A DNA stretch of 64,000 nt from Oceaniglobus roseus (GTDB lineage Bacteria; Pseudomonadota; Alphaproteobacteria; Rhodobacterales; Rhodobacteraceae), in contig NZ_PNOS01000001.1 of the NCBI RefSeq assembly GCF_002869745.1, positions 62,001 through 126,000 of the forward strand, given 5' to 3'. The notes under the pieces are model-generated. The model saw only the letters and a list, made by a program, of their open reading frames with translations. It had not been told where the DNA came from and did no database searches. Position 1 is the first letter of the stretch; every line of letters begins with the position of its first letter. Positions 11,029-50,836 of the stretch are shown here, piece after piece. A program made the translations under genes and the position numbers.

Positions 11029-11035
11029 TCGGCGC

Positions 11036-11761
11036 TCACCCCGTCAGGGCGCGCGGCTCGGCCTCGGGCATCCGGATGTTGCGCTCCAGGCTGGCGCTGT
11101 TCACCAGGACCGCCGCCTGGGTCCGGTTCCGCACCCCGAGCCGCCGCAGCAGCGCGGTGATGTGGGCCTTCACCGTGGCCTCGGCCAGCGACAATTCGTA
11201 GGCGATCAGCTTGTTCGGCATCCCGGCGCAGATCAGCCCCATGATGCGGGCCTGCTGCGGCGTCAGCTCGCCGATGCGCCGCGCGATCTCGTCGGCGTCC
11301 ACCCCGTCCTTCGGCGCCGCACGCTTCTGCGGACAGTATCCCGCCGGCAGGAACTTGTCGCCGTTCTGCACCCGTTGCAGCGCCGTTGCGATCACGCTGC
11401 GCGAGGCGTCCTTGGGGATGAACCCGGCCGCCCCGGCCTCCATCAGCGTCTGGATCGTGGAGTCGCAGACATCGGCCGAGATCACCAGGAACGGCACGTC
11501 CGAAAGCCTTTCCTTCAGGTTGTAGAACCCGGTCAGCCCCACGACGTCGGGCAGCTTCAGGTCCAGCAGCACCAGATCGGGCTGAAGCCCCGCGTCGAGC
11601 GCCGCCATGGCCTCGCGCAGCGACAGCACCGAGCGCACGGCCGACGTGTGAAACAGCGCGCTCAGGGTCGACGACAGCGCGTCGCAATAGAGCGGATGGT
11701 CGTCGATGACCAGGATCGACCTGATCTTGAGCGGCCCGTCCCTTTTCGGCATGTCCAGCAT
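11036..11761 (-). CDS. LuxR/NarL-type response regulator (RfdR/FlhR-like candidate)
   Basis: 241 residues. The receiver domain is complete: acidic pair in VIDDHP, phosphoacceptor Asp in LLDLKLP, Ser in VISAD and Lys in GFIPKDAS. A LuxR helix-turn-helix follows at about 165-225 (ELTPQQARIMGLI, PNKLIAYELSLAEATVKAHI). ATG at 11761 is chosen because GGGAGGAAC precedes it; an in-frame start 30 bases upstream lacks this. It is the first gene of the regulator-FIST-kinase operon. The ribosome site can pair with upstream CCTCC, so translation may be damped. It probably activates the adhI/xoxF genes, as RfdR and FlhR do. Confidence 0.92.
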   Translation of the reverse strand: MLDMPKRDGPLKIRSILVIDDHPLYCDALSSTLSALFHTSAVRSVLSLREAMAALDAGLQPDLVLLDLKLPDVVGLTGFYNLKERLSDVPFLVISADVCDSTIQTLMEAGAAGFIPKDASRSVIATALQRVQNGDKFLPAGYCPQKRAAPKDGVDADEIARRIGELTPQQARIMGLICAGMPNKLIAYELSLAEATVKAHITALLRRLGVRNRTQAAVLVNSASLERNIRMPEAEPRALTG

Positions 11762-28904: not shown

Positions 28905-30155
28905 CTATTCGGCCGCCATGGCCCTTCCGCCATAGTGACGGTCCAGAACCTGGTCGACCTTGGCCTGGTCGAAGTCGGCACCCATCTCGCGCAGGGCCGC
29001 GCCGAAGCGCTGGACGATATCCGAGATTGCGGCGGCGCTCAGCAGGTTCAGGATGCCGATGCGGACCTGCACCGGCTCCGAAAGCGTCGGCCAGATGCCG
29101 AAGTCCTGCGCGCGGCACGATTCCACCAGCTCCTTCTCGCGGCCTTTCAGCGCGCCCGGCAGGTTCAGCACGACGAGCGAGGGCATGTTCGACGTCACCT
29201 CGCAGCCCATGGCCGTGACCGCCTCCTTCAGCGCCGCCTCGTGGAAGACGTAATCCTTCGCCCGCTGCGCCACGGTGTGCTGCAGGGTGATCCGAAGGGC
29301 CTCGTGGAAGGCGGCGACGGCATAGGCGCTGTGGGTGCGGTGATAGGTGCCCTTCTCGACGTCCTTGCCGTCGATGATGCCCCAGTGCCGCGCCTCGAGG
29401 ATCGGATGGTGGTCGAAGGTCCGGCAGCCACGCGTCTTAAGTACGTCGATGTAGCGGTCGGTGAAGGACACCGGCGCATAGGTCAGCGGCAGGCAGCAGA
29501 TGCCCTTCTGCGGGCACGACGCCCAGGCGGCCACGCCCGGGTAATCGTCGATCCGGAAGTCGCCGACGCCCAGCGACGACACCGCGTCGACCAGCCCCAT
29601 CACGCCGTGCTTCCCGCAGGCGTCCGAGAAGCCGCGGATGTCGTTCACCCGGCCAGAACCGGTCTCGTAATGCGCCATGGCGGCCCACATCGGCTTGTGC
29701 TCGGCCAGCGCCTTTTCGACGATCTCGCCGGTCACCGACTGTCCGTGCGGCACGTTAACGATGGTGACGCTGGCGGGCTTCGGGTCCATCGGGTTCGCCG
29801 CCAGCTCCTCGGCCGTGGCGGCCTTCATCCGCACGGTCAGCCCGTCGATGCCCGAGAAGGTGCCGTTCACGAACATCACCACCTTGTCGCCCGGCATCAC
29901 CGCCGAGAACATGGTGTCGAGCCCGCTCCACCCCGTGCCCGCAACCCCGAAGGTATGGACGTTCTTCGTCCCCATCACGTCGCGCAGCATCCGCTTGCAC
30001 TCCTGCATCCCGCGCAGGACGGCGGGGTGCATGTGGTCGGCGATGCCCGCGGCGGCGAAGCGCGCAAGCACCCGGGAGTCGGTATTGCCGGGGCCGGGGC
30101 CCGCTGCGATGGTTTCGGGAATTTCGAGCTGCGCGAAAACGGTGGCTTCGGTCAT
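28905..30155 (-). CDS. sgaA: serine-glyoxylate aminotransferase
   Basis: 416 residues, class V PLP aminotransferase that converts serine and glyoxylate to hydroxypyruvate and glycine. The conserved start GPGPGNTDSRVL, the segment FGVAGTGWSGLDTM, the PLP aspartate in GLVDAVSSLG and the presumed lysine in CPQKGICCLP are visible. The cysteine-rich lysine loop and the somewhat longer chain differ from textbook members, so a related aminotransferase is a minor alternative. ATG at 30155 has GAGGAGGAG. It is the first gene of the five-gene serine-cycle operon. Confidence 0.92.
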   Translation of the reverse strand: MTEATVFAQLEIPETIAAGPGPGNTDSRVLARFAAAGIADHMHPAVLRGMQECKRMLRDVMGTKNVHTFGVAGTGWSGLDTMFSAVMPGDKVVMFVNGTFSGIDGLTVRMKAATAEELAANPMDPKPASVTIVNVPHGQSVTGEIVEKALAEHKPMWAAMAHYETGSGRVNDIRGFSDACGKHGVMGLVDAVSSLGVGDFRIDDYPGVAAWASCPQKGICCLPLTYAPVSFTDRYIDVLKTRGCRTFDHHPILEARHWGIIDGKDVEKGTYHRTHSAYAVAAFHEALRITLQHTVAQRAKDYVFHEAALKEAVTAMGCEVTSNMPSLVVLNLPGALKGREKELVESCRAQDFGIWPTLSEPVQVRIGILNLLSAAAISDIVQRFGAALREMGADFDQAKVDQVLDRHYGGRAMAAE

Positions 30156-31036: not shown

Positions 31037-32014
31037 TCAGCGATCGGCGATCTGGCGAGCCTTCTGCACCAGAACCTCGGCCTGCCGGATCGAGGCATAG
31101 TCGATCAGCCGACCGTCCAGCGACACTGCGCCCTTGCCCTCCGCCTCGGCCACCTTCATCGCTTCCAGGATCCGCTTGGCCTTGGTGATCTCGGCCTCAG
31201 ACGGGCTCATCACCTCGTTGGCCAGCGCGATCTGCGAGGGATGGATCGCCCACTTCCCCTCGCATCCCAGCACCGCCGCGCGGTAGGCCGCCGCGCGATA
31301 GCCGTCGGGATCGCTGAAGTCGCCGAAGGGTCCGTCGATGGGGCGCAGCCCGTTCGCCCGCGCCGCGACGACCATCCGCGCCAGCGCATAGTGCCACATG
31401 TCGCCCCAGTGGGTCTGCCGCGCGCCGCCCTCGTCGGCATCGGTCAGCACGGAATAATGCGGGTTCACCCCGCCGATCACCGTGGTCCGCGCCCGGGTCG
31501 ACGCGGCATAGTCGGCCACACCGAAATGCAGGCTCTCGTTCCGCTTCGACGCCGCCGCGATCTCGGACACGTTCTGCATCCCCAGTGCCGTCTCGATGAT
31601 GTGCTCGAACCCGATCCGCTTCCTGAAGCCCTTCGCGTCCTCGATCTGCGTCACCAGCATGTCGACGGCATAGACATCCGCCGCCGTGCCGACCTTCGGC
31701 ACCATGATCAGGTCCAGTCGCTCGCCCGCCTGCTCCACGATGTCCACCACGTCGCGGTACATGTAATGGGTGTCGAGCCCGTTGATGCGAATCGACATCG
31801 ACTTCTTGCCCCAGTCGATCTCGTTCAGCGCCTTGATGATGTTCTTGCGCGCCTGCGGCTTGTCATCGGGCGCCACCGCGTCCTCGAGGTCCAGGAACAC
31901 CACGTCGACGTCGGATTGCGCCGCCTTTTCAAACATCTGCGGCTGGCTTCCCGGCACCGCCAGTTCCGAGCGGTTCAGTCGGGCGGGGGCTTGTTCGACG
32001 GCGTGGAACGACAT
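31037..32014 (-). CDS. mcl1: L-malyl-CoA / beta-methylmalyl-CoA lyase
   Basis: 325 residues of the CitE/HpcH family with the expected VFLDLEDAVAPDDKPQARK, the metal-binding glutamate region GFEHIIETALG and WAIHPSQIALANEV. It cleaves malyl-CoA to glyoxylate and acetyl-CoA, closing the serine cycle opened by the genes upstream; in Rhodobacter relatives the same enzyme also serves the ethylmalonyl-CoA pathway. ATG at 32014 with AAAGGACC upstream. Convergent with the regulator gene. Confidence 0.95.
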   Translation of the reverse strand: MSFHAVEQAPARLNRSELAVPGSQPQMFEKAAQSDVDVVFLDLEDAVAPDDKPQARKNIIKALNEIDWGKKSMSIRINGLDTHYMYRDVVDIVEQAGERLDLIMVPKVGTAADVYAVDMLVTQIEDAKGFRKRIGFEHIIETALGMQNVSEIAAASKRNESLHFGVADYAASTRARTTVIGGVNPHYSVLTDADEGGARQTHWGDMWHYALARMVVAARANGLRPIDGPFGDFSDPDGYRAAAYRAAVLGCEGKWAIHPSQIALANEVMSPSEAEITKAKRILEAMKVAEAEGKGAVSLDGRLIDYASIRQAEVLVQKARQIADR

Positions 32015-32098: not shown

Positions 32099-33733
32099 TC
32101 AGCCGAACGCGTTCGGCCGCTCCCCCGCCACGCCCAGCGCCGCCTCCAGCCGCGCGCCGACGCCGAGCAGCAGATCCTCCCGGAACAGCCCCGACCAGAG
32201 CGAGATGCCCGAGGGCACGCGGTGCAGCGGCCCGCCCTCCCCCGGCGGCAGCCCCGGACCCGAAGGCGGGCGGCTTGCCCGCATCTCGAACCCGGCGCGC
32301 AGGTGCAGGCAGGGGTGACCGGTGAAGTTCGACGCCACCAGCATCGGCCCCGCCGTGGCCGGACCGATCAGCACGTCGACCTCGCGGAACAGCGCGTCCA
32401 GCGCCTCCATCGTCAGATACCTGAGCTTGTCGAGCTGCACGTGGTCCACCGCCGACAGGAAGCGGGCGCGGCGGAAGGTGTTCGGCCAGGCCTCGTTCGT
32501 CTGCACCGCCAGCATGTCGTCGCGGCCGCTGAACGTCAGCTCCTCGAAGTTCGCCGCCGCCTCCGCCATCAGGGCATGGCGCAGGGAGGCATAGGGCAGG
32601 TCGGGCAGCGTCGCCTCCGTCACGGCCATGCCCAGCCCCCGCGCCACCTCCAGCGCGTGCCGATCCACAGCGCTCGCCCCGTCGAACGTCCCCGAAAGCA
32701 CCCCCAGCCGCAGCCCCGCAAGATCCCGGTCCGCCGGAACGTGCAGCGGCGCGGCGATGCAGGACCTGTCCCGTCCGTCCGGCCCGTGGATCGCCGCCAG
32801 CACCAGCCCGGTGTCGTCGACACCCCGGCAGATCGGCCCCGCCTTGTCGAGCGTCGCGCACAGCACCATGCCCCCCGTCCGCGGCACCCGCCCGAAGGTG
32901 GGGCGCAGCCCGGTCGTGCCGCACCGCTGCGAGGGCGAGACGATGGAGCCCAGCGTCTCGGTCCCGATGGAGAAGCCGCACAGCCCCGCCGCGGTGGCCG
33001 AGGCCGACCCGGCGCTCGACCCGCTCGACCCCTCGTCGGGGTTCCACGGGTTGTTCGTCCGCCCCCCGTACCACACGTCGTTGCGCGCGAGCGCCCCGAG
33101 CGAGGTCTTGCCCAGCAGCACCGCCCCCGCCGCCCGCAGCCGCGTGACGATCTCGGCATCCCGCTCCGGCATCCGGTCACGATAGGGCTCGGCCCCCCAG
33201 CCGGTAACGATGCCCTTGGTGTCGAACAGGTCCTTCAGCCCATAGGGAATCCCCAGCAGCGGCCCCGGCACGTCCCCGTTCGCCCGCCGCGCATCCGCCG
33301 TCGCGGCTTCCGCCAGCGCAAGCTCTTCGGTCACGGCGGCGAAGCAGCGAAGCACCGGGTTGAACCGGGCGATCCGGCCGAGATAGAGCCGTGTCAGCGC
33401 CACGCTGGTGATCGACCCGTCGGCGAGCCACCCCGCCAGCCGCACCAGCGGTGCGAAGGCGATGTCGGCCTCGTCGGCAGGCAGCGGCCCCGGATCGGGC
33501 GGCACGAGGTCCACCCGGTCGGGCACGTCCGGCATGACGAAGTCCGGCAGGCGCGGATCGAAGACGCAGGCCATGGGCACGCCGTTGCCGATCTGCGCCG
33601 CACGAAGCGCCCGGGTCAGCGCCAGCTGCTCGTCCATCAGGGCGGCGATCTGGTGCCGCTCGCCCTCGCCATAGCGCACCCCCATCACCGTTTCCGCGCC
33701 CTGAAGCGCGGTGTGGTCCAGGCATTCGTCCAT
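32099..33733 (-). CDS. amidase (amidase-signature family)
   Basis: 544 residues. The Ser-cisSer-Lys catalytic set is visible: Lys in GIPYGLKDLFDTKG, and the serines in DEGSSGSSAGSASA, followed by GTETLGSIVSPS. An N-terminal extension of about 70 residues precedes the fold. It hydrolyses a carboxamide bond; GatA-like, allophanate hydrolase-like or peptide-amidase roles cannot be separated by sight. ATG at 33733 comes three bases after the stop of the fused peptidase gene, so the two are almost certainly co-translated and may act in turn on the same imported compounds. Confidence 0.9.
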   Translation of the reverse strand: MDECLDHTALQGAETVMGVRYGEGERHQIAALMDEQLALTRALRAAQIGNGVPMACVFDPRLPDFVMPDVPDRVDLVPPDPGPLPADEADIAFAPLVRLAGWLADGSITSVALTRLYLGRIARFNPVLRCFAAVTEELALAEAATADARRANGDVPGPLLGIPYGLKDLFDTKGIVTGWGAEPYRDRMPERDAEIVTRLRAAGAVLLGKTSLGALARNDVWYGGRTNNPWNPDEGSSGSSAGSASATAAGLCGFSIGTETLGSIVSPSQRCGTTGLRPTFGRVPRTGGMVLCATLDKAGPICRGVDDTGLVLAAIHGPDGRDRSCIAAPLHVPADRDLAGLRLGVLSGTFDGASAVDRHALEVARGLGMAVTEATLPDLPYASLRHALMAEAAANFEELTFSGRDDMLAVQTNEAWPNTFRRARFLSAVDHVQLDKLRYLTMEALDALFREVDVLIGPATAGPMLVASNFTGHPCLHLRAGFEMRASRPPSGPGLPPGEGGPLHRVPSGISLWSGLFREDLLLGVGARLEAALGVAGERPNAFG

Positions 33734-33736
33734 GGC

Positions 33737-36484
33737 TCAGCCCCTAACCCGCGTCTCGATGAAGCGCATCATCGCGCCGAAGACCTTCTCGCGGTTCGGT
33801 AAGCGGGCAAAACCGTGGCCCTCGTGGTCGATCCGCACCAGCTCCACGTCGTGGCCAAGGCCGCGCAGGGCGGCGAAGACCAGCTCGCTTTCCGCGGGCG
33901 ACACGCGCGGATCGTCGCCGCCGTGGGCGATGAACAGCGGCGCCCGCACCTCGGCGATCTTCCGCAGCGGCGAGAAGCCGACCAGCATCTCGCGTCCCTC
34001 CGCCGTGTCGGGGTCGCCGTATTCCACCGCGCGCAGCTTGCGCCGCCAGGGCCCGGTCGCGGCCATCAGCATGTTGAAGTCGGCGATGCCGTAGAACTCG
34101 ACGGCGCAGGCCCAGTCCCGCGGATACTCGGTGATCGACGACAGCACCATGAACCCGCCATAGCTCTGCCCCGAGACCACCATCCGCCCCGCGTCCACGT
34201 CCCGGCGGCCCGCGATAGCGTCGCGTACCGCCTTCAGATCGCGCACCGAATCCATCCGCTTCTCCAGGTCGTCCGCCGCCTGCCAGGCCCGGCCGTACCC
34301 CGTCGAGCCGCGCACGTTCGGCGCGACCACCAGCCAGCCGCGCCGGACCAGGTACTGCACGTCGGACCGCCAGTGCGCCGCATATTGCGATTCCGGGCCG
34401 CCGTGGACGACGAAGAACACCGGATAGCCGGCCTCGGGCGCCGGATCGCGGGGGGTGAAGATCCAGGCGGGCACCTCGGCGCCGTCGAAGCTGGGGAAGG
34501 ACGCGAGCGTCGGTTCGACCGTATCGGCGTCCTTCAGCACCGGGGCGCCCGCCGCCAGCACCTCCACCGCGCCCGTCCCGATCGCGACCCTCACGATCTG
34601 CGAGGGGCCGCGGAACCCCGTGACGGCGAGGATCAGCGACTCCTGGTCCGGCGCGAAGAGCAGCGTCGTCACCCGGCCCGGAAACGGCATCGCCACCTCG
34701 GTCGCCTCGCCCGTGGCGCGTTCGAGCACCGCGAGGCGCGAGTATCCCTTGTCGTTCCAGGCATAGGCGATGCGCCCCTGGTCCTTCGTCAGCGCCATCG
34801 CCTCGACATCGCCCTCGGGCCGGGCCAGCCGGCTCAGCCCGCCCGCAAGGTCCAGCCGCTGGAGACAGTGGAAGTCGTGTCCACGATCGGTGACCAGCAG
34901 CAGCGCCGCGCCCTTCTCGATCCAGCGGGCCGCGTTGAAATGCGCTTTGGCCCCGCCCGCCAGCAGCACCTTCTCCTCGCCGTCGAGCGGCAGCAGGTGC
35001 AGCGCGGCGTCGTACATGCCGTCGCGGTCGTCCTCGATCAGCAGGGCCGTGCCGTCCGGTGTGAAGGCACGGGGCGTGCGGCACCCCGGCCCCTCCAGAA
35101 CGACACTGTCCTGCCCCGAGTCGAGGTCGCGGACATGGATCTGCGTGTGCTCGGGATGCCCCGCGTTGCTGGCATAGGCGATGCGCCTGCCGGCGGGATC
35201 GAAGCAGCCCCAGGTGTGCACCACGCCGGGCGCCGCCGTCAGGGCCTCGTGCGCCGTCGCGCCGTCGCGCAGGAGGTTCAGCTGGTGATGCTCGTCCCCG
35301 CCGCAATCGGTGGTGAACAGGATGTCCCGGCTGCCGGGGCGGAATGCGATGCTGCCCACCTTCTCGGTCAGCGCCGTCCGCTGCACCGGCGCCCCGTCCG
35401 GCAGGTCCCGCGACCAGAGCTGGTCGAACCCCGTCTCGTCCGAGATCCAGGCCAGCATTTCGCCGTCCTCGGACAGCGCGGGCGAATGGTGGGCCCGCGG
35501 CGCGAGGTAGGTCCCGATCGGCAGCGCCCCCGGTCCGTCGGCCAGCCGGTCCGACGCCGCGCGCAGCGCCGTGGACAGGTCCGGCGCCTCCAGCGTGGCG
35601 ACGTGGTTCGACAGTTCGACCAGCGTGAACCGCGCCTCGGGCCAGGCGCGGTGCAGGTCCCACGCGCTCTGCATCGGCGTCACCACGTCGTAGCGGCCCT
35701 GCACGATCTCGCAGGGCAGGTGGCGGATGCCGTCGATGTTGTCGAGAAGGTGGTTCTCGGGCTGGAAGAAGCCGTTGATGCAGTAGTGCGTGAACATCCG
35801 CGAGATTTCCAGCGCCGCCCGCGGCGTCGTCAGCGCCTTCACGTGGGCCGCGCTGTAAAGCAGCGTCTGCGTGCGCGAGGAGAAGCCGCGCAGCTGCACG
35901 GCCGCCGCCATCTGCACCTCGGGATCCGGGTCAACCAGCCGCCGGTGGTAGGCGGCCAGCAGGTCGTCCCGCTCGTCCGGGCCGACATGGGCCGCGAACG
36001 GCTCGAACGCATCAGGAAAGAGCTGGCCGATGCCGTGGAACCAGAACCGCACCTCGTGGGGACGGCCCAGGAACACCCCGTGCAACCGCAGGGCGCGGCA
36101 GCGGTCGGGATGGGCGATGGCATAGGCCAGCGTCAGGTAGCTGCCCCAGGAGCCGCCCGCGACCATCCAGGTGTCGATCCCCAGGTGTTCGCGCACCCGC
36201 TCGATGTCCGCGATCAGCGCATCCGTCGTGTTGCCGCCCAGTTCCGCCGAAGGCTCGGACTTGCCGCAGCCGCGCTGGTCGAACAGCACGATCCGGTAAC
36301 GGGCGGGATCGAAGGTGCGCCGTTGCGCCGGTTTCGTGCCTGCGCCGGGGCCGCCATGCAGGAACACCACAGGGATGCCGTCCGGGTTGCCGGATTCCTC
36401 GACATGGAGGACATGGGGCGCCTCCACCTCGAGGCGGTGCGTGGCATAGGGGTCGATCGGTGGATAAAGCGCCTCATTAAGCAT
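33737..36484 (-). CDS. natural fusion: proline iminopeptidase (S33) + S9 acylaminoacyl/prolyl-oligopeptidase
   Basis: One continuous frame of 915 residues. Residues 1-315 match a complete proline iminopeptidase: HGGPGAGTKPAQRRTFDP, oxyanion and nucleophile GGSWGS (Ser112), Asp266 in GRYDVVTP and His294. Residues about 330-660 are a TolB-like beta-propeller, and 670-915 an S9 catalytic domain with GQSYGGF (Ser774), Asp858 in HGGDDPRV and His890 in DHEGHGF. Both triads look intact and there is no signal peptide, so the enzyme is cytoplasmic. ATG at 36484 has AGGACAG. A separate stand-alone proline iminopeptidase is present at 49865-50836. It is divergent from a peptide importer, which suggests it trims imported peptides. 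Fusion of these two folds is unusual. Confidence 0.93.
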   Translation of the reverse strand: MLNEALYPPIDPYATHRLEVEAPHVLHVEESGNPDGIPVVFLHGGPGAGTKPAQRRTFDPARYRIVLFDQRGCGKSEPSAELGGNTTDALIADIERVREHLGIDTWMVAGGSWGSYLTLAYAIAHPDRCRALRLHGVFLGRPHEVRFWFHGIGQLFPDAFEPFAAHVGPDERDDLLAAYHRRLVDPDPEVQMAAAVQLRGFSSRTQTLLYSAAHVKALTTPRAALEISRMFTHYCINGFFQPENHLLDNIDGIRHLPCEIVQGRYDVVTPMQSAWDLHRAWPEARFTLVELSNHVATLEAPDLSTALRAASDRLADGPGALPIGTYLAPRAHHSPALSEDGEMLAWISDETGFDQLWSRDLPDGAPVQRTALTEKVGSIAFRPGSRDILFTTDCGGDEHHQLNLLRDGATAHEALTAAPGVVHTWGCFDPAGRRIAYASNAGHPEHTQIHVRDLDSGQDSVVLEGPGCRTPRAFTPDGTALLIEDDRDGMYDAALHLLPLDGEEKVLLAGGAKAHFNAARWIEKGAALLLVTDRGHDFHCLQRLDLAGGLSRLARPEGDVEAMALTKDQGRIAYAWNDKGYSRLAVLERATGEATEVAMPFPGRVTTLLFAPDQESLILAVTGFRGPSQIVRVAIGTGAVEVLAAGAPVLKDADTVEPTLASFPSFDGAEVPAWIFTPRDPAPEAGYPVFFVVHGGPESQYAAHWRSDVQYLVRRGWLVVAPNVRGSTGYGRAWQAADDLEKRMDSVRDLKAVRDAIAGRRDVDAGRMVVSGQSYGGFMVLSSITEYPRDWACAVEFYGIADFNMLMAATGPWRRKLRAVEYGDPDTAEGREMLVGFSPLRKIAEVRAPLFIAHGGDDPRVSPAESELVFAALRGLGHDVELVRIDHEGHGFARLPNREKVFGAMMRFIETRVRG

Positions 36485-36584
36485 CGTCTGTCCTGTCCCA
36501 TGGGCGCACGGGGCGGCATCCGGAACCGCTCTCCGAAGGCGCGCGAAATTTCTGCTGGCAATTCGCCCGGATTCGTTCAAGCAT

Positions 36585-36599
36585 GATCGTCATACAATC
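36585..36599. promoter_or_regulatory. GntR (FadR-class) operator candidate
   Basis: GATCGTCATACAATC is a perfect interrupted palindrome of the form GAT-N-GT-NNN-AC-N-ATC and matches the FadR-subfamily consensus TNGTNNNACNA at 36587-36597. It lies in the 197-base gap between the divergent fused-peptidase operon and the ABC importer operon. The GntR/FCD gene at 43338-44018 closes the importer operon and is the obvious ligand-responsive repressor. Confidence 0.6.
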
Positions 36600-36681
36600 T
36601 GCCGGATGCAAGGCAGGGACTCAGGAAACGCCCGATTGCCCGTCCTCCGGCGGGCCCGGGGTTCAGACAGGGAAACTCAAG

Positions 36682-38277
36682 ATGAAAATTTCAGCAAGGA
36701 CCGGACTGGCCGCCGCCGCCATCGTCGCCGCGACCGGCGCCTGGGCCGAAACACCGCCCGACACCATGGTGATGGCACGCAACATCGACGCCATCTCGAC
36801 CTTCGATCCGGCCCAGATCGGCGAGGTGGTGACGAACGAGATCATCCAGAACACCTGCGACAGCCTGGTGTCCACCGATCCCGCGGACGAGGCGGGCGTG
36901 GTCCCGGCGCTGGCGAAAAGCTGGAAGGTCTCCGACGACGGCCTGAAGATCACCTTCGACCTGGTGCAGGGCGCGACCTTCCCCTCGGGCAACCCGGTGA
37001 CGGCCGCGGACGTGGCCTGGTCGATGCAGCGTGTCCTGAAGCTCGGTTTCGGCAACGCCGCGACGCTGACCGAATACGGCTTCTCCGCCGACGGCGCGGA
37101 AGAGCAGTTCGTCGCCGTCGACGACCACACCTTCGAGATGAACCTGTCCCGCCCCTATCCCTCGGGACTGATCCTGCAGGCCATCGCGTCGAACCGGGTC
37201 GCCAACGTGCTGGACAAGGCGCTTCTGGAAGGCGAGGCGGTCGAGAACGACTATGGCAACAAGTACCTGACCACCCACACCGCCTGCGTCGGTCCCTACC
37301 AGCTTCGCCAGTGGAACGCGGGCGAGGTGGTGATCCTGGAAGCGAACGAGGGCTATTACGGCGACGCGCCGAAGATCAAGCGCTGGATCATCCGCCATGT
37401 GGCCGAGGCGCAGGCCCAGCGCCTGCTGCTGGAACAGGGCGACATCGACGTGGCGCGCGACCTCGGCGCCGAGGACCTGCGCGACCTGTCCGAGAACCCG
37501 GACATCAAGGTGGAATCGACCCCGCTGCACCAGCTCTACTACATGGGCTTCAACAGCGCCGAGCCCGAGTTCGAGGACGACCGCGTGCGCCTCGCCTTCA
37601 AGTATCTCGTGGACTACGACGGCCTTGCCGACACGGTGATGAAGTACCTCGGCGTGCCCCGCGCCAGCGTCGTGCCCATCGGAGCCTTCGGCGCCCTGAA
37701 CGAGGAGGAGGGCCAGCCCTTCAAGCTGGACCTCGACAAGGCGAAGGAGCTGATCACCGAGGCGGGCTATCCCGACGGCTTCACCGCCCGCCTGTTCGTC
37801 GGCACGCTTCCCTATGTCGCCCCCATCGCGCAGCATGTGCAGGAGAACGCGGCGAAGATCGGCATCACGCTCAACATCGAGCAGATGGCGAACGCACAGC
37901 TGTTCTCGGCCTTCCGCGGCCGTGACTTCGACACCATCATGCTCTCGTGGCAGACCTCGGTGCCGCACGCCCACGGGATGCTGTCGCGCCACGCGGTGAA
38001 CCCCGACAACTCGGCCGACTCCGGCCTGTCGATGTACCCGACCTGGCGTGCCTCCTGGTTCTCCGAGGACTTCAACAGGCGCGTCGACGAGGCGCTGTTC
38101 GAGAAGGACGAGGCGAAGCAGATCGAGATGTACCACCAGATCCAGAAGGACCACATGGAGCACGGGCCCTTCGCCTACATGTTCCAGCTTCTCGACACCG
38201 CGGCGATGCGCCAGAACGTCACGAACTGGCCCTGGAACGCCTTCCGCGTCTACTACGCCGACGTCGAGAAGGGCTGA
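36682..38277 (+). CDS. dipeptide/oligopeptide-type ABC importer, substrate-binding protein
   Basis: 531 residues, solute-binding family 5. ATG at 36682 with AGGGAA upstream and a signal peptide of about 22 residues ending Ala-Trp-Ala-Glu. Family marks include FDPAQIGEVVTNEIIQNTCDSL, VPALAKSWKVSDDGL, VTAADVAWSMQRVL and the HTACVGPYQL region. It acts in the periplasm and delivers peptides or similar compounds to the two permeases downstream. It is first of five importer genes followed by an M20 amidohydrolase and a GntR regulator. The exact ligand cannot be read from sequence. Confidence 0.95.
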   Translation: MKISARTGLAAAAIVAATGAWAETPPDTMVMARNIDAISTFDPAQIGEVVTNEIIQNTCDSLVSTDPADEAGVVPALAKSWKVSDDGLKITFDLVQGATFPSGNPVTAADVAWSMQRVLKLGFGNAATLTEYGFSADGAEEQFVAVDDHTFEMNLSRPYPSGLILQAIASNRVANVLDKALLEGEAVENDYGNKYLTTHTACVGPYQLRQWNAGEVVILEANEGYYGDAPKIKRWIIRHVAEAQAQRLLLEQGDIDVARDLGAEDLRDLSENPDIKVESTPLHQLYYMGFNSAEPEFEDDRVRLAFKYLVDYDGLADTVMKYLGVPRASVVPIGAFGALNEEEGQPFKLDLDKAKELITEAGYPDGFTARLFVGTLPYVAPIAQHVQENAAKIGITLNIEQMANAQLFSAFRGRDFDTIMLSWQTSVPHAHGMLSRHAVNPDNSADSGLSMYPTWRASWFSEDFNRRVDEALFEKDEAKQIEMYHQIQKDHMEHGPFAYMFQLLDTAAMRQNVTNWPWNAFRVYYADVEKG

Positions 38278-38280
38278 TCC

Positions 38281-39354
38281 GTGGCCGTGACGGACACCGC
38301 CGCACCGGACCGCGAGACCGACAGCGACACCGCCGCCCGGTGGGTGTCGCTGGCCGGGGTAGTGTTCCGCACGGTGCTGTCCGTCGCCGTCACGATCCTC
38401 GGCCTGCTGGCGCTGACCTTCTTCATCGGCCGCCTGCTGCCCCTCGACCCGGTGCTGGCGATCCTCGGGGACGACGCCAGCCAGGAGGCCTATGACCGGA
38501 TGTATGTCAGCCTGGGGCTGGACCAGCCGCTGTGGCGGCAGTTCCTGACCTACATCGTCAATTCCCTGACCTTCGACTTCGGCACCTCCCTGACCAGCGG
38601 CAGGCCCGTGACCGAGGACATCCTGCGCGTCTTCCCGGCAACGCTGGAGCTGGCGACGGTCGCCATGATCCTCGGCACCGGCCTCGGCATCCCGCTGGGG
38701 GTGACGGCCGCGGCGAACCGCGACACCTGGATCGACCAGACCGTGCGGGTGGTGTCGCTGATCGGCTATTCCGCCCCGATCTTCTGGCTGGGCCTCCTCG
38801 GCCTCACCGTCTTCTACGCCGGGCTCGGCTGGGTCGGCGCGCCGGGGCGGATCGACATCGTGTATCAGTACGACCTTCAGCCGGTGACGGGGCTCTACCT
38901 CGTCGATTCCCTGCTCGCGGGACGGTGGGACATCTTCCAGGACGTGTTCTCGCGCATCGTCCTGCCCGCCTCGATCCTCGCCTACGGCGCAATGGCCTAT
39001 ATCGCGCGGATGACCCGCAGCTTCATGCTGGAGCAGTTCGGGCAGGAATACATCACCGCCGCCCGCGCCAAGGGCGCGACCCGGCGTCAGGTGATCTGGA
39101 GCCATGCCTTCCCCAACATCGCCGTTCAGCTCGTCACGGTCGTCGCCCTGTCCTACGCCTTCCTGCTGGAAGGGGCGGTGCTGACGGAAACCGTCTTCGC
39201 CTGGCCGGGCTTCGGACGCTACCTCACCACCGCGCTGCTCCGGGCCGACATGAACGCGGTCCTTGGCTGCACCCTGATCGTCGGGCTGATCTTCATCGCC
39301 CTGAACCTTGCCTCCGACATCTTCTACCGCGTCTTCGACCCGAGGACGCGATGA
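38281..39354 (+). CDS. ABC importer permease (DppB-type)
   Basis: 357 residues, inner-membrane permease with six helices and the EAA loop (EYITAARAKGATRRQVIWSH). GTG at 38281 starts four bases after the binding-protein gene, with the ribosome site inside its end. A hydrophilic N-terminal tail of about 25 residues precedes the first helix. It overlaps the next permease gene (ATGA). Confidence 0.93.
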   Translation: MAVTDTAAPDRETDSDTAARWVSLAGVVFRTVLSVAVTILGLLALTFFIGRLLPLDPVLAILGDDASQEAYDRMYVSLGLDQPLWRQFLTYIVNSLTFDFGTSLTSGRPVTEDILRVFPATLELATVAMILGTGLGIPLGVTAAANRDTWIDQTVRVVSLIGYSAPIFWLGLLGLTVFYAGLGWVGAPGRIDIVYQYDLQPVTGLYLVDSLLAGRWDIFQDVFSRIVLPASILAYGAMAYIARMTRSFMLEQFGQEYITAARAKGATRRQVIWSHAFPNIAVQLVTVVALSYAFLLEGAVLTETVFAWPGFGRYLTTALLRADMNAVLGCTLIVGLIFIALNLASDIFYRVFDPRTR

Positions 39355-40274
39355 CCGACCTGCCCGGTTCCCCGCCCCAGTCCACGCTCCGAGGCTGGCT
39401 GGAAGCGCCAGGCGCCACCTCCCCGGGGCAGGCCCGGGCGCAGGCCGCCTGGCGCAGCTGGCAGCGGCTTGTGGCCAACAAGGCGGCGCTGGCGGGGCTG
39501 ATCGTGCTGCTGGCGCTGATCTTCCTCGCCGTCTTCGGCCCCGCGCTGACGCCCTACGACCCGATGGCGCAGAACCTGTCCGAACGCCTGCTGCCGCCCT
39601 CTGGCGCCCATCCCTTCGGCACCGATGACCTTGGCCGCGACATCATGACCCGCATCCTCTACGGCGCCCGCATCACCCTGATGATGGCCGCGCTGGTCGC
39701 CGTCATCGCGGGACCCATCGGCCTGATCGTGGGCGCGACCGCGGGTTATCTCGGCGGCTGGACCGACATCGTGGCCATGCGCGTCGTCGACATCTTCCTG
39801 TCCTTCCCCTCGCTGATCCTCGCCCTCGCCTTCGTCGCGGCCCTCGGTCCGGGGATCGAGAACGCCGTCATCGCCATCGCCCTCTCGGCCTGGCCCCCCA
39901 TCGCCCGCCTCGCGCGGGCCGAGGCGCTGACGGTGAGGAAATCCGACTACATCGCCGCCGCCCGCATCCAGGGAGCGAGCCGGTTCCGGCTGATCCTGCG
40001 CCACGTCATGCCCGTGTGCCTGCCCTCGGTGGTCATCCGCATCACGCTGAACATGGCCGGGATCATCCTGACCGCCGCCGGCCTCGGCTTCCTCGGCCTC
40101 GGCGCCCAGCCGCCGAGCCCGGAATGGGGCGCCATGCTCGCCTCGGGCCGGCAGTTCATGCTCACCTCCTGGTGGCTCGCCGCCATTCCCGGTGCCGCGA
40201 TCATGGTGGTCTCGCTGGCCTTCAACCTGCTCGGCGACGGGCTGCGCGACGTGCTGGATCCCCGCGATGACTGA
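39351..40274 (+). CDS. ABC importer permease (DppC-type)
   Basis: 307 residues. The N-terminal 40 residues are hydrophilic, then a membrane helix, the GTDDLGRDIMTRILYGAR segment typical of DppC and an EAA loop (DYIAAARIQGASRFRLILRH). ATG at 39351 overlaps the DppB-type stop, and its own 3' end overlaps the ATPase gene by eight bases. Forms the channel with the preceding protein. Confidence 0.94.
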   Translation: MTDLPGSPPQSTLRGWLEAPGATSPGQARAQAAWRSWQRLVANKAALAGLIVLLALIFLAVFGPALTPYDPMAQNLSERLLPPSGAHPFGTDDLGRDIMTRILYGARITLMMAALVAVIAGPIGLIVGATAGYLGGWTDIVAMRVVDIFLSFPSLILALAFVAALGPGIENAVIAIALSAWPPIARLARAEALTVRKSDYIAAARIQGASRFRLILRHVMPVCLPSVVIRITLNMAGIILTAAGLGFLGLGAQPPSPEWGAMLASGRQFMLTSWWLAAIPGAAIMVVSLAFNLLGDGLRDVLDPRDD

Positions 40275-41112
40275 CACCCTCCTCGAAATCGAGAACCTCC
40301 GCGTCGCATACCCCTCGGCCCACGGCTATACCGATGCGCTGCGCGGCATCTCCTTCTCCGTGGGCCGCGAGCGGCTCGGCATCGTCGGCGAATCCGGCTC
40401 GGGCAAGTCCACCGCCGGACGCGCCGCGATGCGCCTGCTGCCCCCGAAGGCCCGGGTCAGCGCCGACAGGCTGCAACTGCAGGAGATCGACCTCCTCGCC
40501 GCCTCCGAAAGGCAGATGCGCGAGATCCGCGGCGGCCGCCTTGCCATGGTGTTGCAGGACCCCCGCTATGCCCTGAACCCGATGAAGACGGTGATGGCGC
40601 AGATCACCGAATCCTGCCGCCTCCACACGAAATGCTCCCGCGCCGAGGCCCGCGATCAGGCTCTGGACATGCTCGAAGCCGTCCACATCCGCGATCCCCG
40701 CCGCGTCGCGCGCCTGTACCCGCACGAGCTTTCGGGCGGAATGGGCCAGCGGGTGATGATCGCCATGATGCTGATCGCCAAGCCGCAACTCGTCATCGCC
40801 GACGAGCCGACCTCGGCGCTGGATGTGACCGTGCGGGGCCAGATCCTCGATATCCTGAACGAGCGGGTCGAGGCCGAAGGCGCGGGCCTGATCCTGATCT
40901 CGCACGACCTGCCGCTGGTCGCCGACTTCTGCGACCGTGTCCTCGTCATGTACGGTGGTCAGATCATGGAGGAACTCGCCGCCCGCGACCTCTCCGCCGC
41001 CAGACACCCCTATACCGTGGCCCTGAACGAAAGCCTCCCCCCGCTCGACCGCAAGGTGGCGGAGCTGACCGTGCCCGAGCACGATCCGAAATGGCTGGAG
41101 CAGCGCCGATGA
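40267..41112 (+). CDS. ABC importer ATPase (DppD-type)
   Basis: 281 residues with Walker A GESGSGKST, Q-loop VLQDPRYALNP, signature LSGGMGQRV, Walker B LVIADEPTSALD and a switch His in ISHDLPLVAD. The C-terminal RHPYTVALNESLPPLD segment is the oligopeptide-type tail. ATG at 40267 overlaps the permease. Works as a heterodimer with the next gene. Confidence 0.95.
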   Translation: MTDTLLEIENLRVAYPSAHGYTDALRGISFSVGRERLGIVGESGSGKSTAGRAAMRLLPPKARVSADRLQLQEIDLLAASERQMREIRGGRLAMVLQDPRYALNPMKTVMAQITESCRLHTKCSRAEARDQALDMLEAVHIRDPRRVARLYPHELSGGMGQRVMIAMMLIAKPQLVIADEPTSALDVTVRGQILDILNERVEAEGAGLILISHDLPLVADFCDRVLVMYGGQIMEELAARDLSAARHPYTVALNESLPPLDRKVAELTVPEHDPKWLEQRR

Positions 41113-41867
41113 CCCCCGCCGTCGAGATCCGCGACCTCACCATCACCTTCGGACAGGGCCGCGCCCGCGTGAAGGCGGTGGACAGCGCCAGCTTCCGCGC
41201 CGCCCCGGGCGAGGCCTTCGGTATCATCGGCGAATCCGGCTCGGGCAAGTCCACGATCCTGCGGGCCATCACGGGCCTCAACGACGACTACACCGGCGAC
41301 GTCCTGATCGACGGCCAGCAGGCGCAGAAGCCCCGCACCAAGGCCTTCTTCAAGACCGTGCAGATGGTCTTCCAGGACCCCTACGGCTCGCTCCACCCCC
41401 GCCGGATGATCCGCGCCACGCTGGCCGAACCGCTGGAGATCCACCGCTTCGACAGGAAGGACGACCGCATCGCGCAGGTGCTGAACGACGTCGGCCTCGC
41501 CCCGGAATTCGCCTACCGCTACCCCCACCAGCTGTCCGGCGGGCAGCGCCAGCGCGTCGCCGTCGCCCGCGCACTGCTGCTGGAACCGCGCATCCTGCTG
41601 CTGGACGAACCCACCTCGGCCCTCGACGTCTCGGTGCAGGCCGGCGTCCTGAACCTGCTCGACAGGCTCCGCCGCGACCGGGGGCTGACCTACGTCATGG
41701 TCTCCCACGATCTGCGCGTGATCGCCCACATGTGCAGCCGCGTGGCGGTGATGACGCAAGGCAGGATCGTCGAGGAGCTGAGCGCCGACGCCCTGCGCGA
41801 CCAGCGTGCCGAAACCGAGTACACGCAACAACTGATCCGGGCGAGCCGGGGCACCGCCCACGCCTGA
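41109..41867 (+). CDS. ABC importer ATPase (DppF-type)
   Basis: 252 residues with Walker A GESGSGKST, Q-loop VFQDPYGSLHPR, signature LSGGQRQRV and Walker B ILLLDEPTSALD. It is slightly shorter than usual because the C-terminal peptide-importer tail is reduced. ATG at 41109 overlaps the preceding stop (ATGA). Completes the importer. Confidence 0.95.
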   Translation: MTPAVEIRDLTITFGQGRARVKAVDSASFRAAPGEAFGIIGESGSGKSTILRAITGLNDDYTGDVLIDGQQAQKPRTKAFFKTVQMVFQDPYGSLHPRRMIRATLAEPLEIHRFDRKDDRIAQVLNDVGLAPEFAYRYPHQLSGGQRQRVAVARALLLEPRILLLDEPTSALDVSVQAGVLNLLDRLRRDRGLTYVMVSHDLRVIAHMCSRVAVMTQGRIVEELSADALRDQRAETEYTQQLIRASRGTAHA

Positions 41868-41891: not shown

Positions 41892-43310
41892 ATGCAGAGC
41901 AACGAAAACCCGATCTGGCCCCAGGTCGACGCCAAGCGCGAGGCCTTCGTCGCCCTCGCCGACCGCGTCTTCGACATGCCCGAGATCGCCTATACCGAGG
42001 TCCGCTCCTGTGCCGAACACACCGCGATGCTGAAGGCCGAGGGCTTCCGCATCACCGAGAACGCCGCCGGCATCCCCACCGCCGTCGTCGGCGAGGCAGG
42101 GAATGGCGGCCCGGTCATCGCGATCCTCGGCGAATACGACGCGCTGCCGGGCCTGTCGCAGCAGCCGGGACTGGCAGAGCCGAAGATGATCTCCGACACC
42201 GGCTTCGGCCACGGCTGCGGCCACAACCTGCTCGGCTCCGCCGCCATGCTCGCCGCCACCGCCATCAAGGACTGGATCGAGGCGGAGGGGATCAAGGCCA
42301 CCATCCGCTATTACGGCTGCCCGGCCGAGGAAGGCGGCGCAGCCAAGACATACATGGTGCGCGAGGGGCTGTTCGAGGACGTCGACCTTGCCATCACCTG
42401 GCACCCGGCCAGCTTCAACGGCGTGGACGACGCGCATTCGCTGGCCAACACCCGCATCGACTTCACCTTCACCGGCAAGGCCGCCCATGCCGCCGGTGCG
42501 CCTGAACTGGGCCGCTCCGCGCTCGACGCGGTGGAACTCATGAACATCGGCGTCAACTACATGCGCGAGCACATGCCTGACGACGCCCGAGTCCATTACG
42601 CCTATCTCGACGCCGGCGGCATCGCGCCGAACGTGGTGCAGGCCAAGGCCACCGTGCGCCAGCTGATCCGCGCCCGTGACCTCGCCGGGCTGTCGGACCT
42701 CGTGGAGCGGGTAAGGAAGATCGCCGACGGCGCCGCCCTGATGACCGGCACGAAGGTCGAGTCCAGGGTCTTCTCCGCCGTCTCGAACCTGATCGGCAAC
42801 CGCCCCCTCGAAGAGGCCATGCAGGCGGAATTCGACGCGCTCGGCCCCGTGCCCTTCGACGAGGCCGACAAGATCTTCGCCGAACAGATCCGCAAGACCC
42901 TGACGAAAGAGGACATCGCCGACACCTTCCGCCGCCTCGACATGAAGCCCGACTACGACATGCCGCTCTGCACCTTCGTCGCCCCGCTCGACCGGCGCTT
43001 CGTCGGCGGCATGGGTTCGACCGACGTGGGCGATGTCAGCTGGGCCGTGCCCACCGTGCAGGCCCGCGTCGCGACCTGCGCCATGGGCACGCCGTTCCAC
43101 ACCTGGCAGCTGACCGCGCAGGGAAAGGAGCCGTTCGCCCACAAGGGCATGGTCCACGCCGCGAAGGTGATGGCCGCCACCGCCCGCGCCGCGATCCTGA
43201 ACGACGTGTTGCGCGCCAACGCCAGGAAGGCCCACGCCGAGCACCTGGCGGAATTTCCCTATGCCTGCCCGATCCCTGCCGATACAAGGCCGCCGGTCGC
43301 GGCAGAGTAG
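41892..43310 (+). CDS. M20 amidohydrolase (AbgB / aminoacylase-like)
   Basis: 472 residues, zinc-dependent amidohydrolase of peptidase family M20D. Visible features are the metal segments GEYDALPGLSQ and GHGCGHNLLGSAA, the glutamate pair in CPAEEGGAAK, and a dimerisation domain beginning near ANTRIDFTFTGKAAHAAG. ATG at 41892 with AAGGAG upstream. AbgB-type enzymes split aminoacyl-aromatic amides such as p-aminobenzoyl-glutamate; related enzymes remove acyl groups from amino acids. Coupled to a peptide importer and a GntR regulator, it likely hydrolyses the imported N-substituted amino acid or dipeptide. Confidence 0.94.
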   Translation: MQSNENPIWPQVDAKREAFVALADRVFDMPEIAYTEVRSCAEHTAMLKAEGFRITENAAGIPTAVVGEAGNGGPVIAILGEYDALPGLSQQPGLAEPKMISDTGFGHGCGHNLLGSAAMLAATAIKDWIEAEGIKATIRYYGCPAEEGGAAKTYMVREGLFEDVDLAITWHPASFNGVDDAHSLANTRIDFTFTGKAAHAAGAPELGRSALDAVELMNIGVNYMREHMPDDARVHYAYLDAGGIAPNVVQAKATVRQLIRARDLAGLSDLVERVRKIADGAALMTGTKVESRVFSAVSNLIGNRPLEEAMQAEFDALGPVPFDEADKIFAEQIRKTLTKEDIADTFRRLDMKPDYDMPLCTFVAPLDRRFVGGMGSTDVGDVSWAVPTVQARVATCAMGTPFHTWQLTAQGKEPFAHKGMVHAAKVMAATARAAILNDVLRANARKAHAEHLAEFPYACPIPADTRPPVAAE

Positions 43311-43337: not shown

Positions 43338-44018
43338 GTGTCAGAGCAGAGCGAAAGCGAAGAGGGTGGCCCGTTCCGGCTGGTGCGCGAGAAGGTGCTG
43401 CACGAAGTGCGCCGCGCCATCGCGCTTGGCACGCTGGAACCCGGCGCGCGCCTGACCGAACGCGCCTTGTGCGAAACCTATGGCATCTCGCGCACCGCGG
43501 CGCGCGAGGTGATCCGCCAGCTCGACGCCGAGAAGCTGGGCGAGGTGGTGCCGCACCAGGGTCTGCGCATCGCCCGGCTGACCCCGAAGGCGGTGCGCGA
43601 GATCTACGAGATCCGGGCCGAGATGGAGGTGCTGATCACCCGCGCCTTCATCGCGCTGGCCACGGAAGAGGAGGTCGCCGTTCTGAAGGGCCTGGTCGAT
43701 GCCCTGAACGACGCGACGGCGCGCGGCGACATCGAGGCGCTGGTCGCCCATTCCAGCCGCTACGTGAGCCACATGTACGAAACCGCGGACATGCAGATCG
43801 CGGGCGAGCTGATGCAGCACCTGAACGCCCGCATCACGCTGGTCCGGGTGCTGGCCATGCGCGAGCCGGGCCAGATCAGTGCCGGGATCGGACAGCTGGA
43901 ACGGATCCGCGCCCGCATCGCCGCCCGCGATCCCGACGGGGCCGAGGCCGAGATCCGCAAGTACATGCGCACCGCCCTGGCCTCGGCCCTGCACCAGCTG
44001 GGCGGCGACCCGGCCTGA
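43338..44018 (+). CDS. GntR/FCD transcriptional regulator
   Basis: 226 residues: winged helix (LVREKVLHEVRRAIALGTLEPG, RTAAREVIRQLDAEKLGE) and an all-helical FCD domain with metal-binding histidines and aspartates around EIRAEMEV and SSRYVSHMYE. GTG at 43338 follows GGGAGGTGA. Located at the end of the importer/amidohydrolase operon, before a strong terminator. It probably represses both this operon and the divergent peptidase-amidase operon through the site at 36585-36599, responding to an imported acid or amino acid. Confidence 0.93.
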   Translation: MSEQSESEEGGPFRLVREKVLHEVRRAIALGTLEPGARLTERALCETYGISRTAAREVIRQLDAEKLGEVVPHQGLRIARLTPKAVREIYEIRAEMEVLITRAFIALATEEEVAVLKGLVDALNDATARGDIEALVAHSSRYVSHMYETADMQIAGELMQHLNARITLVRVLAMREPGQISAGIGQLERIRARIAARDPDGAEAEIRKYMRTALASALHQLGGDPA

Positions 44019-49864: not shown

Positions 49865-50836
49865 CTAACTGCCTCTCAGATGATCCATCGTCTGCACCAG
49901 CGCACGGCTGATCCCCGGCTCGGACAGCGCATGGCCCGCCCGCGGCACCATGACCATTTGCGAGCCCGGCCAGGCCCGGTGCAGCGTCCAGGCGGCGGCG
50001 GGCGGGCAGATCATGTCGTAGCGGCCCTGCACGATGGTGCCGGGCACATCCCTCAGCCGGCCGATGTTCTGCAGGATCTGGCCGTCGCGTTCGAGAAATC
50101 CCGCGTTGATGAAATAGTGGTTCTCGAGCCGGGCGAAGGCGCGGGCGTATTCCGCCGGGCTTTCGCCGCCGGGGCCGTCGTTCTCGATGCTGGCCAGGGT
50201 GTTTTCCCAGCTGGCCCAGGCGCGGGCGTGGCGCGTCTCCTGCATGATGTCGCCCGAGAACAGCCGCCGGTGATAGGCCTCGACCAGGTTCCCCTGTTCG
50301 TCTTCGGGAATCATGTCGGTGAACCGCTTCCAGACCTCGGGCCAGAACTTGCCCGCGCCGCCGCCATAGAACCAGTCGAGCTCGGCGGCGGTCATCAGGA
50401 AGACTCCGCGCAGCACCAGGTGGCGCACGCGATCGGGATGCGTCTCGCCGTAGATCAGGGCCAGCGTCGCGCCCCAGCTGCCGCCGAAGACGATCCACTG
50501 CTCTACGCCCAGGCTCTGCCGGATCCGCTCGATATCCGCGACGAGGTGCCAGGTGGTGTTCGCCTCGACGCTGGCATGGGGGCGGGAACGGCCGCAGCCG
50601 CGCTGGTCGAACAGCACGATGCGATAGACGGAAGGGTCGAAATAGCGGCGCATGGAGGGCGAACATCCACCGCCGGGCCCGCCGTGCAGCACGATCACCG
50701 GGATGCCGTCGGGCCTGCCGCACTGCTCGACATAGATCCGGTGGCCGTCGCCCACGTCGAGCATCCGCTGGTCGAACGGATCGATGGGGGGATACAGATA
50801 GTGGGCTGCGCCCTTTTGACCTGAAATCTTGTTCAT
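49865..50836 (-). CDS. pip: proline iminopeptidase
   Basis: 323 residues, cytoplasmic S33 peptidase releasing N-terminal proline. The start is LYPPIDPFDQRMLDVGDGH; nucleophile GGSWGAT, aspartate in GRYDMICPP and histidine in RAGHALSEPG complete the triad. This is the canonical stand-alone form and is clearly related to the N-terminal half of the fused peptidase at 33737-36484. ATG at 50836. It sits at the upstream side of the second peptide importer, in keeping with peptide use. Confidence 0.96.
   Translation of the reverse strand: MNKISGQKGAAHYLYPPIDPFDQRMLDVGDGHRIYVEQCGRPDGIPVIVLHGGPGGGCSPSMRRYFDPSVYRIVLFDQRGCGRSRPHASVEANTTWHLVADIERIRQSLGVEQWIVFGGSWGATLALIYGETHPDRVRHLVLRGVFLMTAAELDWFYGGGAGKFWPEVWKRFTDMIPEDEQGNLVEAYHRRLFSGDIMQETRHARAWASWENTLASIENDGPGGESPAEYARAFARLENHYFINAGFLERDGQILQNIGRLRDVPGTIVQGRYDMICPPAAAWTLHRAWPGSQMVMVPRAGHALSEPGISRALVQTMDHLRGS

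Follow-up and report, generated by a model that had tools for sequence, protein, structure and literature searches.

What does a protein do that carries two complete serine peptidases of different families in one chain? The question is raised by a gene on the minus strand (positions 33737 to 36484) of a 64,000-nucleotide stretch of the Oceaniglobus roseus genome (contig NZ_PNOS01000001.1, positions 62,001 to 126,000; here called the window), which an initial annotation described as a proline iminopeptidase of family S33 fused in frame to a propeller peptidase of family S9, the pair perhaps processing proline-containing peptides in sequence. The fusion is genuine, conserved, and sparsely spread in the samples searched, and it joins known families rather than representing a new kind of system. 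Its main interest is not the aspect first noted but the S33 half, which belongs to a clade lacking the glutamates that recognise proline and which is probably not a proline iminopeptidase, despite its NCBI equivalog name.

The gene is a frame of 915 codons, uninterrupted up to its final stop. Pfam domains recognized in the product are Abhydrolase_1 at residues 38-301 (139.9 bits), PD40 at residues 332-357 and Peptidase_S9 (PF00326) at residues 706-910 (133.1 bits); the NCBIfam prolyl aminopeptidase (PAP) model TIGR01249 matches residues 11-312 with 319.8 bits against a cut-off of 259.75; and the PDB matches are the proline iminopeptidases 1azw (residues 5-311) and 1qtr (residues 5-315) and the amino acyl peptidase 5l8s (residues 336-911). 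The S33 triad of Ser112, Asp266 and His294 aligns with Ser113, Asp268 and His296 of 1qtr, and the S9 triad of Ser774, Asp858 and His890 is unchanged across all 16 aligned S9 sequences. The initial annotation, which was silent on the minus strand, had proposed this S33 and S9 architecture, the propeller nature of the second domain and both triads at these residues, all of which are borne out. A long overlapping frame on the plus strand (33815-36586) was set aside, the families and the relatives matching the minus-strand protein, which is the one that the library searches covered. Because the N-terminus (MLNEALYPPIDPY...) has no signal peptide apparent by eye, the fused protein is presumed to be cytoplasmic. 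No in-frame ATG, GTG or TTG occurs between residues 301 and 342 of the window gene, and the stretch scanned at locus L035 has no start-like codon in frame. Such codons are found in or just past the linker at L036, L037 and L040, and a lone ATG further on at L038 and L041, so that an internal restart may yield a free S9 protein at some loci.

A scan of genome contigs gave 18 pattern matches, five of which encode relatives: four full fusions, from Oceaniovalibus sp. ACAM 378, Stappia stellulata SN27-3, Pseudoruegeria sp. HB172150 and a metagenome-assembled genome of the Rhodobacteraceae, and one S9-only protein, from Salipiger mangrovisoli. Whole-genome searches detected full fusions in 2 of 61 relatives, 3 of 394 genomes of the family, 2 of 390 of the order, 1 of 385 of the class and 1 of 378 of the phylum, counts that each include the window's own genome, that come from partly overlapping samples, and that were obtained at cut-offs (1e-30 for relatives, 1e-150 for the family, 1e-110 for class and order, 1e-105 for the phylum) which distant fusions could escape. 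Two of the six same-genus genomes in the sample of relatives possess the fusion; one of the four without it is only 75% complete. With the Oceaniovalibus locus L035 and locus L006 of genome G002 counted once, since they coincide in contig position and in protein, seven distinct loci including the window encode the full-length fusion, all with open frames, and the six other proteins are 63-75% identical to that of the window. The in-frame junction of the initial annotation thus extends to every locus. Although other genomes hold the two genes separately, side by side, their joining by sequencing or assembly error, or by a frameshift, is ruled out by the same open fusion at seven places and deserves practically no weight. 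Among the 21 pairs of fused genes, the ratio of nonsynonymous to synonymous differences (pN/pS) is below 1 for the S33 domain, the propeller and the S9 catalytic part alike, ranging from 0.13 to 0.56 for S33 and from 0.11 to 0.43 for the S9 catalytic part (uncorrected values, partly saturated, with synonymous differences of 0.37-0.68), and in all 21 pairs the S33 value is lower than that of the propeller; each half is under constraint.

The S33 half resembles PAP, or proline iminopeptidase (MEROPS S33.001; 1qtr from Serratia and 1azw from Xanthomonas), in whole-length alignment, triad, HGGPG and GGSWGS motifs and passage of the TIGR01249 cut-off, whereas it differs in being joined to an S9 enzyme and in the residues of its pocket. 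The review PMC9147577 attributes a part in the recognition of an N-terminal proline by Serratia PAP to Glu204 and Glu232, together with Phe139, Tyr149 and Phe236. By alignment, the fusion has Ser202, Phe231, Phe138, Trp148 and Cys235 in place of Serratia residues 204, 232, 139, 149 and 236, respectively. Serine and phenylalanine replace the two glutamates in all seven fused rows of the S33 tree and also in its four split rows, in which S33 and S9 are separate neighbouring genes; the fused rows further differ from PAP by tryptophan for Tyr/Phe149, cysteine for Phe236 and histidine for Arg136.

The S33 tree comprises 59 rows after removal of repeats (45 entries were collected for the S33 alignment, several of them duplicates of one place), and a branch with support of 100/99 splits the clade containing the fusion from the other rows. 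In Serratia numbering, all 20 rows of this clade have Ser204, Trp149, Thr271 and an intact triad, with residue 232 being phenylalanine in 18 and tryptophan in two, while 37 of the 39 rows outside it keep both glutamates, including Serratia PAP and the genome's own housekeeping copy; the residues so counted belong to the columns from which the tree was built. The two exceptions outside the clade, L015 (Gly) and L079_10951 (Asp), lack Glu204. Loci L091 and L086, the latter frame-broken, were excluded from the trees and carry the same S33 residues. Because its clade is without the two glutamates kept by nearly all the rows outside, the S33 half is probably not a proline iminopeptidase; fixed replacements, together with a retained triad, look like a changed specificity and not like decay. 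The identity first given to this domain is therefore not supported, and with the recognition glutamates replaced, the sequential processing of proline-containing peptides loses its main support. The separate proline iminopeptidase noted elsewhere in the window is present as described and keeps both glutamates.

The S9 half consists of an N-terminal propeller and a C-terminal alpha/beta-hydrolase with a Ser-Asp-His triad, and is nearest to the acylaminoacyl-peptidase type rather than to a proline-specific S9 enzyme, judging by comparison with solved structures. The closest of these by sequence, over nearly its whole length, is the acylaminoacyl peptidase of Sporosarcina (SpAAP, 5l8s), which also ranks first by fold among the Foldseek matches listed (TM 0.81 on target length, 23% identity in the structure alignment). 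The two share the order of propeller and catalytic domain, the HGGP and GxSYGG motifs and the triad. The type used for this comparison is S9C, to which 1ve6 from Aeropyrum also belongs. Whereas SpAAP has a bridging alpha1-helix at its N-terminus, as described in PMC3574126, the fusion, about 23% identical, carries a whole S33 enzyme in that place. The structure model of the fusion, built from seven sequences, is of intermediate quality (mean pLDDT 76, pTM 0.69); the S33 cap and the surroundings of the two active sites are modelled with low confidence, and no inter-domain placement was drawn from it; all 50 Foldseek matches listed are S9 enzymes, the support for the S33 fold coming from sequence.

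The genes around the fusion (Table 1) suggest import followed by hydrolysis. Downstream lies an amidase gene, and divergently transcribed are genes of an ATP-binding cassette (ABC) importer, an M20 amidohydrolase and a GntR/FCD regulator. The best NCBIfam matches of the importer genes are of peptide, glutathione or nickel (Dpp/Opp/Gsi/Nik) type. Orthologues of the importer and M20 genes accompany the fusion in six of the seven loci (the window, L035, L036, L037, L038 and L050; not L051), with the substrate-binding protein gene adjoining it in L035, L036, L037, L038 and L050. The GntR gene is present beside the fusion in five of seven loci, one of the other two being L038, whose contig ends nearby; the amidase gene is present in four of the six loci with enough sequence (the window, L035, L036 and L050) and was not found in L037 and L051.

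Table 1. Coordinates of the fused gene, its parts and the surrounding genes, as positions in the window.
Feature	Position	Strand	Remarks
Fused S33-S9 serine peptidase, 915 aa	33737..36484	-	Open frame; Pfam, NCBIfam and PDB matches; fusion also in six other distinct loci
S33 domain, residues 1-316	35537..36484	-	Triad Ser112/Asp266/His294; Ser202 and Phe231 replace PAP Glu204 and Glu232
Inter-domain linker, about residues 317-322	35519..35536	-	
S9 beta-propeller part, about residues 323-680	34445..35518	-	Strand-rich in the model, mostly with high confidence; aligns with 5l8s
S9 alpha/beta-hydrolase part, about residues 681-915	33740..34444	-	Triad Ser774/Asp858/His890
Amidase (PF01425)	32099..33733	-	Starts 3 bases past the fusion stop codon
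Substrate-binding protein of Dpp/Opp/Gsi-like ABC importer	36583..38277	+	Divergent; true start probably internal, ahead of a signal-peptide-like stretch (by eye)
ABC permease 1	38281..39354	+	DppB-like, under the equivalog cut-off
ABC permease 2	39351..40274	+	Named from place and conservation
ABC ATPase 1 (open frame)	40192..41112	+	Start probably near 40276
Open frame with ABC ATPase 2	40632..41867	+	Start probably near 41109
M20 amidohydrolase	41892..43310	+	TIGR01891, 252.7 bits (cut-off 153.75)
GntR/FCD regulator	43338..44018	+	
Housekeeping prolyl aminopeptidase	49865..50836	-	Separate gene, both recognition glutamates kept; comparison only

The relatives of this operon indicate how the fusion arose. 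Separate neighbouring S33 and S9 genes, followed by genes for an M20 protein, a substrate-binding protein, two permeases and two ATPases, are found in genomes G866 (one place) and G798 (two places), and one of the G798 places matches plasmid p296221 of Paracoccus aestuarii (L087). On that plasmid, the genes annotated as 'pip' (8968-9945) and 'S9 family peptidase' (9932-11725) have a 14-base overlap, and after them come genes for an amidohydrolase, a substrate-binding protein and a pair each of permeases and ATPases. Three records of Neorhizobium galegae show this gene order too, S33 and S9 lying in different frames; in two of them (L090 and L091) the S9 frame is already open before the S33 stop, wherever the gene itself starts. 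The Paracoccus and Neorhizobium genes share with the fused loci their families, their order and the S33 replacements, with a related M20 gene and ABC importer, and differ from them in having two reading frames instead of one protein and an operon with beta-lactamase-family and MmgE/PrpD genes. Ketogulonicigenium vulgare, Bartonella sp. HY328 and G924 have the S9 gene next to M20 and importer genes but no S33 gene nearby; in Salipiger the S9 gene adjoins the substrate-binding protein gene, ATPase and permease genes lie further along, and M20 gave no match. Because its halves are adjacent separate genes in the related operon of Paracoccus and Neorhizobium, the fusion is a merged pair of neighbours from an import-and-hydrolysis operon, of which the fused form, the adjacent overlapping genes and the lone S9 gene are all extant. 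In the S33 tree, a single group (98/89) holds the fused and the split rows, with the fused rows as one group inside it (100/97). In the S9 tree, the fused rows group together (100/100), as do the split rows (96/97), the latter sitting with S9-only rows. A single merger of neighbouring genes would explain the fused rows, and the partnership of S33 with S9 may have more than one origin.

The best explanation of the system as a whole, to which we give a probability of roughly 0.42, is that an imported N-blocked peptide is degraded by the fusion and then by the M20 enzyme. A Dpp-like ABC importer would carry a peptide-like compound into the cytoplasm, where both serine hydrolase sites of the fused chain would act on it: the S9 site, of acylaminoacyl-peptidase type, would accept N-blocked (acyl- or pyroglutamyl-like) peptides, and the S33 site, descended from PAP, would no longer recognise a free N-terminal proline. 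The M20 amidohydrolase, with the amidase where present, would then open the remaining amide, for example that of an N-acyl amino acid. Salvage of N-blocked peptides is suggested because the S9 half is nearest to an enzyme that removes N-acyl amino acids and is partnered with an M20 amidohydrolase, and a blocked N-terminus is suggested because a pocket without the two glutamates would no longer favour a charged one. From these comparisons we infer activity at both sites, a substrate whose N-terminal amino group is not free, this order of steps and this role for the M20 enzyme. Acylpeptide hydrolase followed by aminoacylase is an established route, similar in logic to the salvage proposed. A possible but doubtful extension would make the whole Ser204/Phe232 clade an overlooked subfamily of mislabelled, PAP-derived hydrolases of N-terminally blocked, proline-like residues (pyroglutamyl or N-acyl-prolyl), with the two-site fusion feeding peptides from the importer via S33 and S9 to an M20 aminoacylase, as a bacterial counterpart of acylpeptide hydrolase and aminoacylase.

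Several observations weigh against the salvage of N-blocked peptides or against the history proposed for the fusion. The importer genes score under every NCBIfam equivalog cut-off shown, TIGR01891 is a broad subfamily, and the three M20 equivalog models listed are far under their cut-offs. The specificity of the S9 half cannot be read off because it is only distantly like 5l8s, and the puromycin hydrolases 3azo and 7c72 and the carboxypeptidase 8wt1 are also near. The S9 tree keeps fused and split rows apart, and forcing them together costs 19.2 log-likelihood units (p-AU 0.065, not a clear rejection). Nine stand-alone rows of the Ser204 clade, from genomes G452, G573, G668 and G671, which are rich in PAP-like genes, mostly lack the operon: around six of these loci (L075, L076, L078, L083, L084 and L085) no S9 or M20 relatives were found at 1e-8, and the surroundings have only weak matches to substrate-binding proteins or amidases. 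No ABC importer was found within about 8 kb on each side of the fusion of G112 (L051). Finally, the operons differ in content, in a comparison of loci of different lengths (L038 and L089 end nearby): at 1e-8, relatives of MmgE/PrpD are present in 10 of 11 split or S9-only loci (L039, L056-L059, L086-L088, L090 and L091; not L089) and relatives of the beta-lactamase family in 9 of 11 (not L056 or L089), and both are absent from all seven fused loci. The fused loci are thus an operon type of their own, and because these genes occur only in the split and S9-only operons, the pathways of the two may differ.

The same genes bear on whether the substrate is a peptide at all. An esterase, lactonase or amidase acting on a non-peptide or xenobiotic compound (an aminonucleoside or an antibiotic-like amide, for instance) would agree with the puromycin hydrolases among the S9 fold neighbours, with the amidase gene directly after the fusion in the window, and with the beta-lactamase-family and MmgE/PrpD genes in the split and most S9-only operons. 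Against it stand the Dpp/Opp/Gsi/Nik-type best matches of the importer, and on balance it appears unlikely; importers of this type also carry solutes of other kinds. A role in which a proline iminopeptidase and an S9 peptidase handle proline-containing peptides in turn, consistent with the TIGR01249 score, with 1azw and 1qtr as best PDB matches and with the intact S33 triad, is made quite improbable by the identical loss of both glutamates in the seven fused and four split rows, and by the presence in the same genome of a PAP that retains them. The S33 domain could instead be silent or structural, leaving the S9 half to work alone, and the S9 genes without a nearby S33 gene in Salipiger, Ketogulonicigenium, Bartonella and G924 do imply that S33 is dispensable in some genomes; yet a triad kept in all 20 clade rows, and S33 pN/pS values that in no pair reach that of the propeller, leave this a poor prospect.

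Although its recognition glutamates are replaced, the window protein scores above the cut-off of an NCBI equivalog model, and for a clade of 'prolyl aminopeptidases' with fixed alternative specificity residues the automatic names of the members are probably wrong. In the literature searched (titles and abstract openings, with subscription papers mostly outside the search), no description of an S33-S9 fusion was found, and nothing relevant to PAP-like enzymes without the recognition glutamates or to a bacterial acylpeptide hydrolase and aminoacylase with an ABC transporter. The substrate, if found, would establish a new alphaproteobacterial pathway of import and hydrolysis.

Some loci have features of their own. 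The M20 gene next to the fusion in G112 is not that of the other loci, and hydantoinase/oxoprolinase A and B genes also adjoin the fusion there (L051, 11321-16510); a likely TRAP transporter is nearby, as judged by eye from translations. Hydantoinase and oxoprolinase enzymes act on cyclic amides, and at this one locus the oxoprolinase-type genes fit a pyroglutamyl substrate. The product of the P. aestuarii S33 gene (L087, 8968-9945; WP_119885628.1) is named a prolyl aminopeptidase, a name that is probably wrong, since serine and phenylalanine stand where the recognition glutamates are expected. In N. galegae CP090555.1 (L086, 9965-18536), the S9, M20 and ATPase genes are frame-changed, whereas the S9, M20 and importer genes have single-piece matches in the two other records. 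The beta-lactamase-family and MmgE/PrpD genes were located at L057 17328-19412, L087 18465-20570 and L088 17701-19778. Beyond the amidase, the window encodes CitE/malyl-CoA-lyase-like (31037-32014, minus strand) and aminotransferase-like (28905-30155, minus strand) proteins, with no match at 1e-10 in 15 related loci. An apparent second PAP-S9 fusion in G051, with a match to residue 419 and one TAG, was rejected: in the 4245 bases of L007 the PAP stops at the TAG, the sequence beyond it resembles a response regulator by eye, and an S9 match is absent at 1e-3. The genomes G668, G573, G452 and G671 (L064-L085), from other families of the class, possess up to eight PAP-like genes each (eight in G668), some in tandem; among their 21 S33 matches, 16 were read, of which nine are of the Ser204/Phe-or-Trp232 type and seven retain Glu232.

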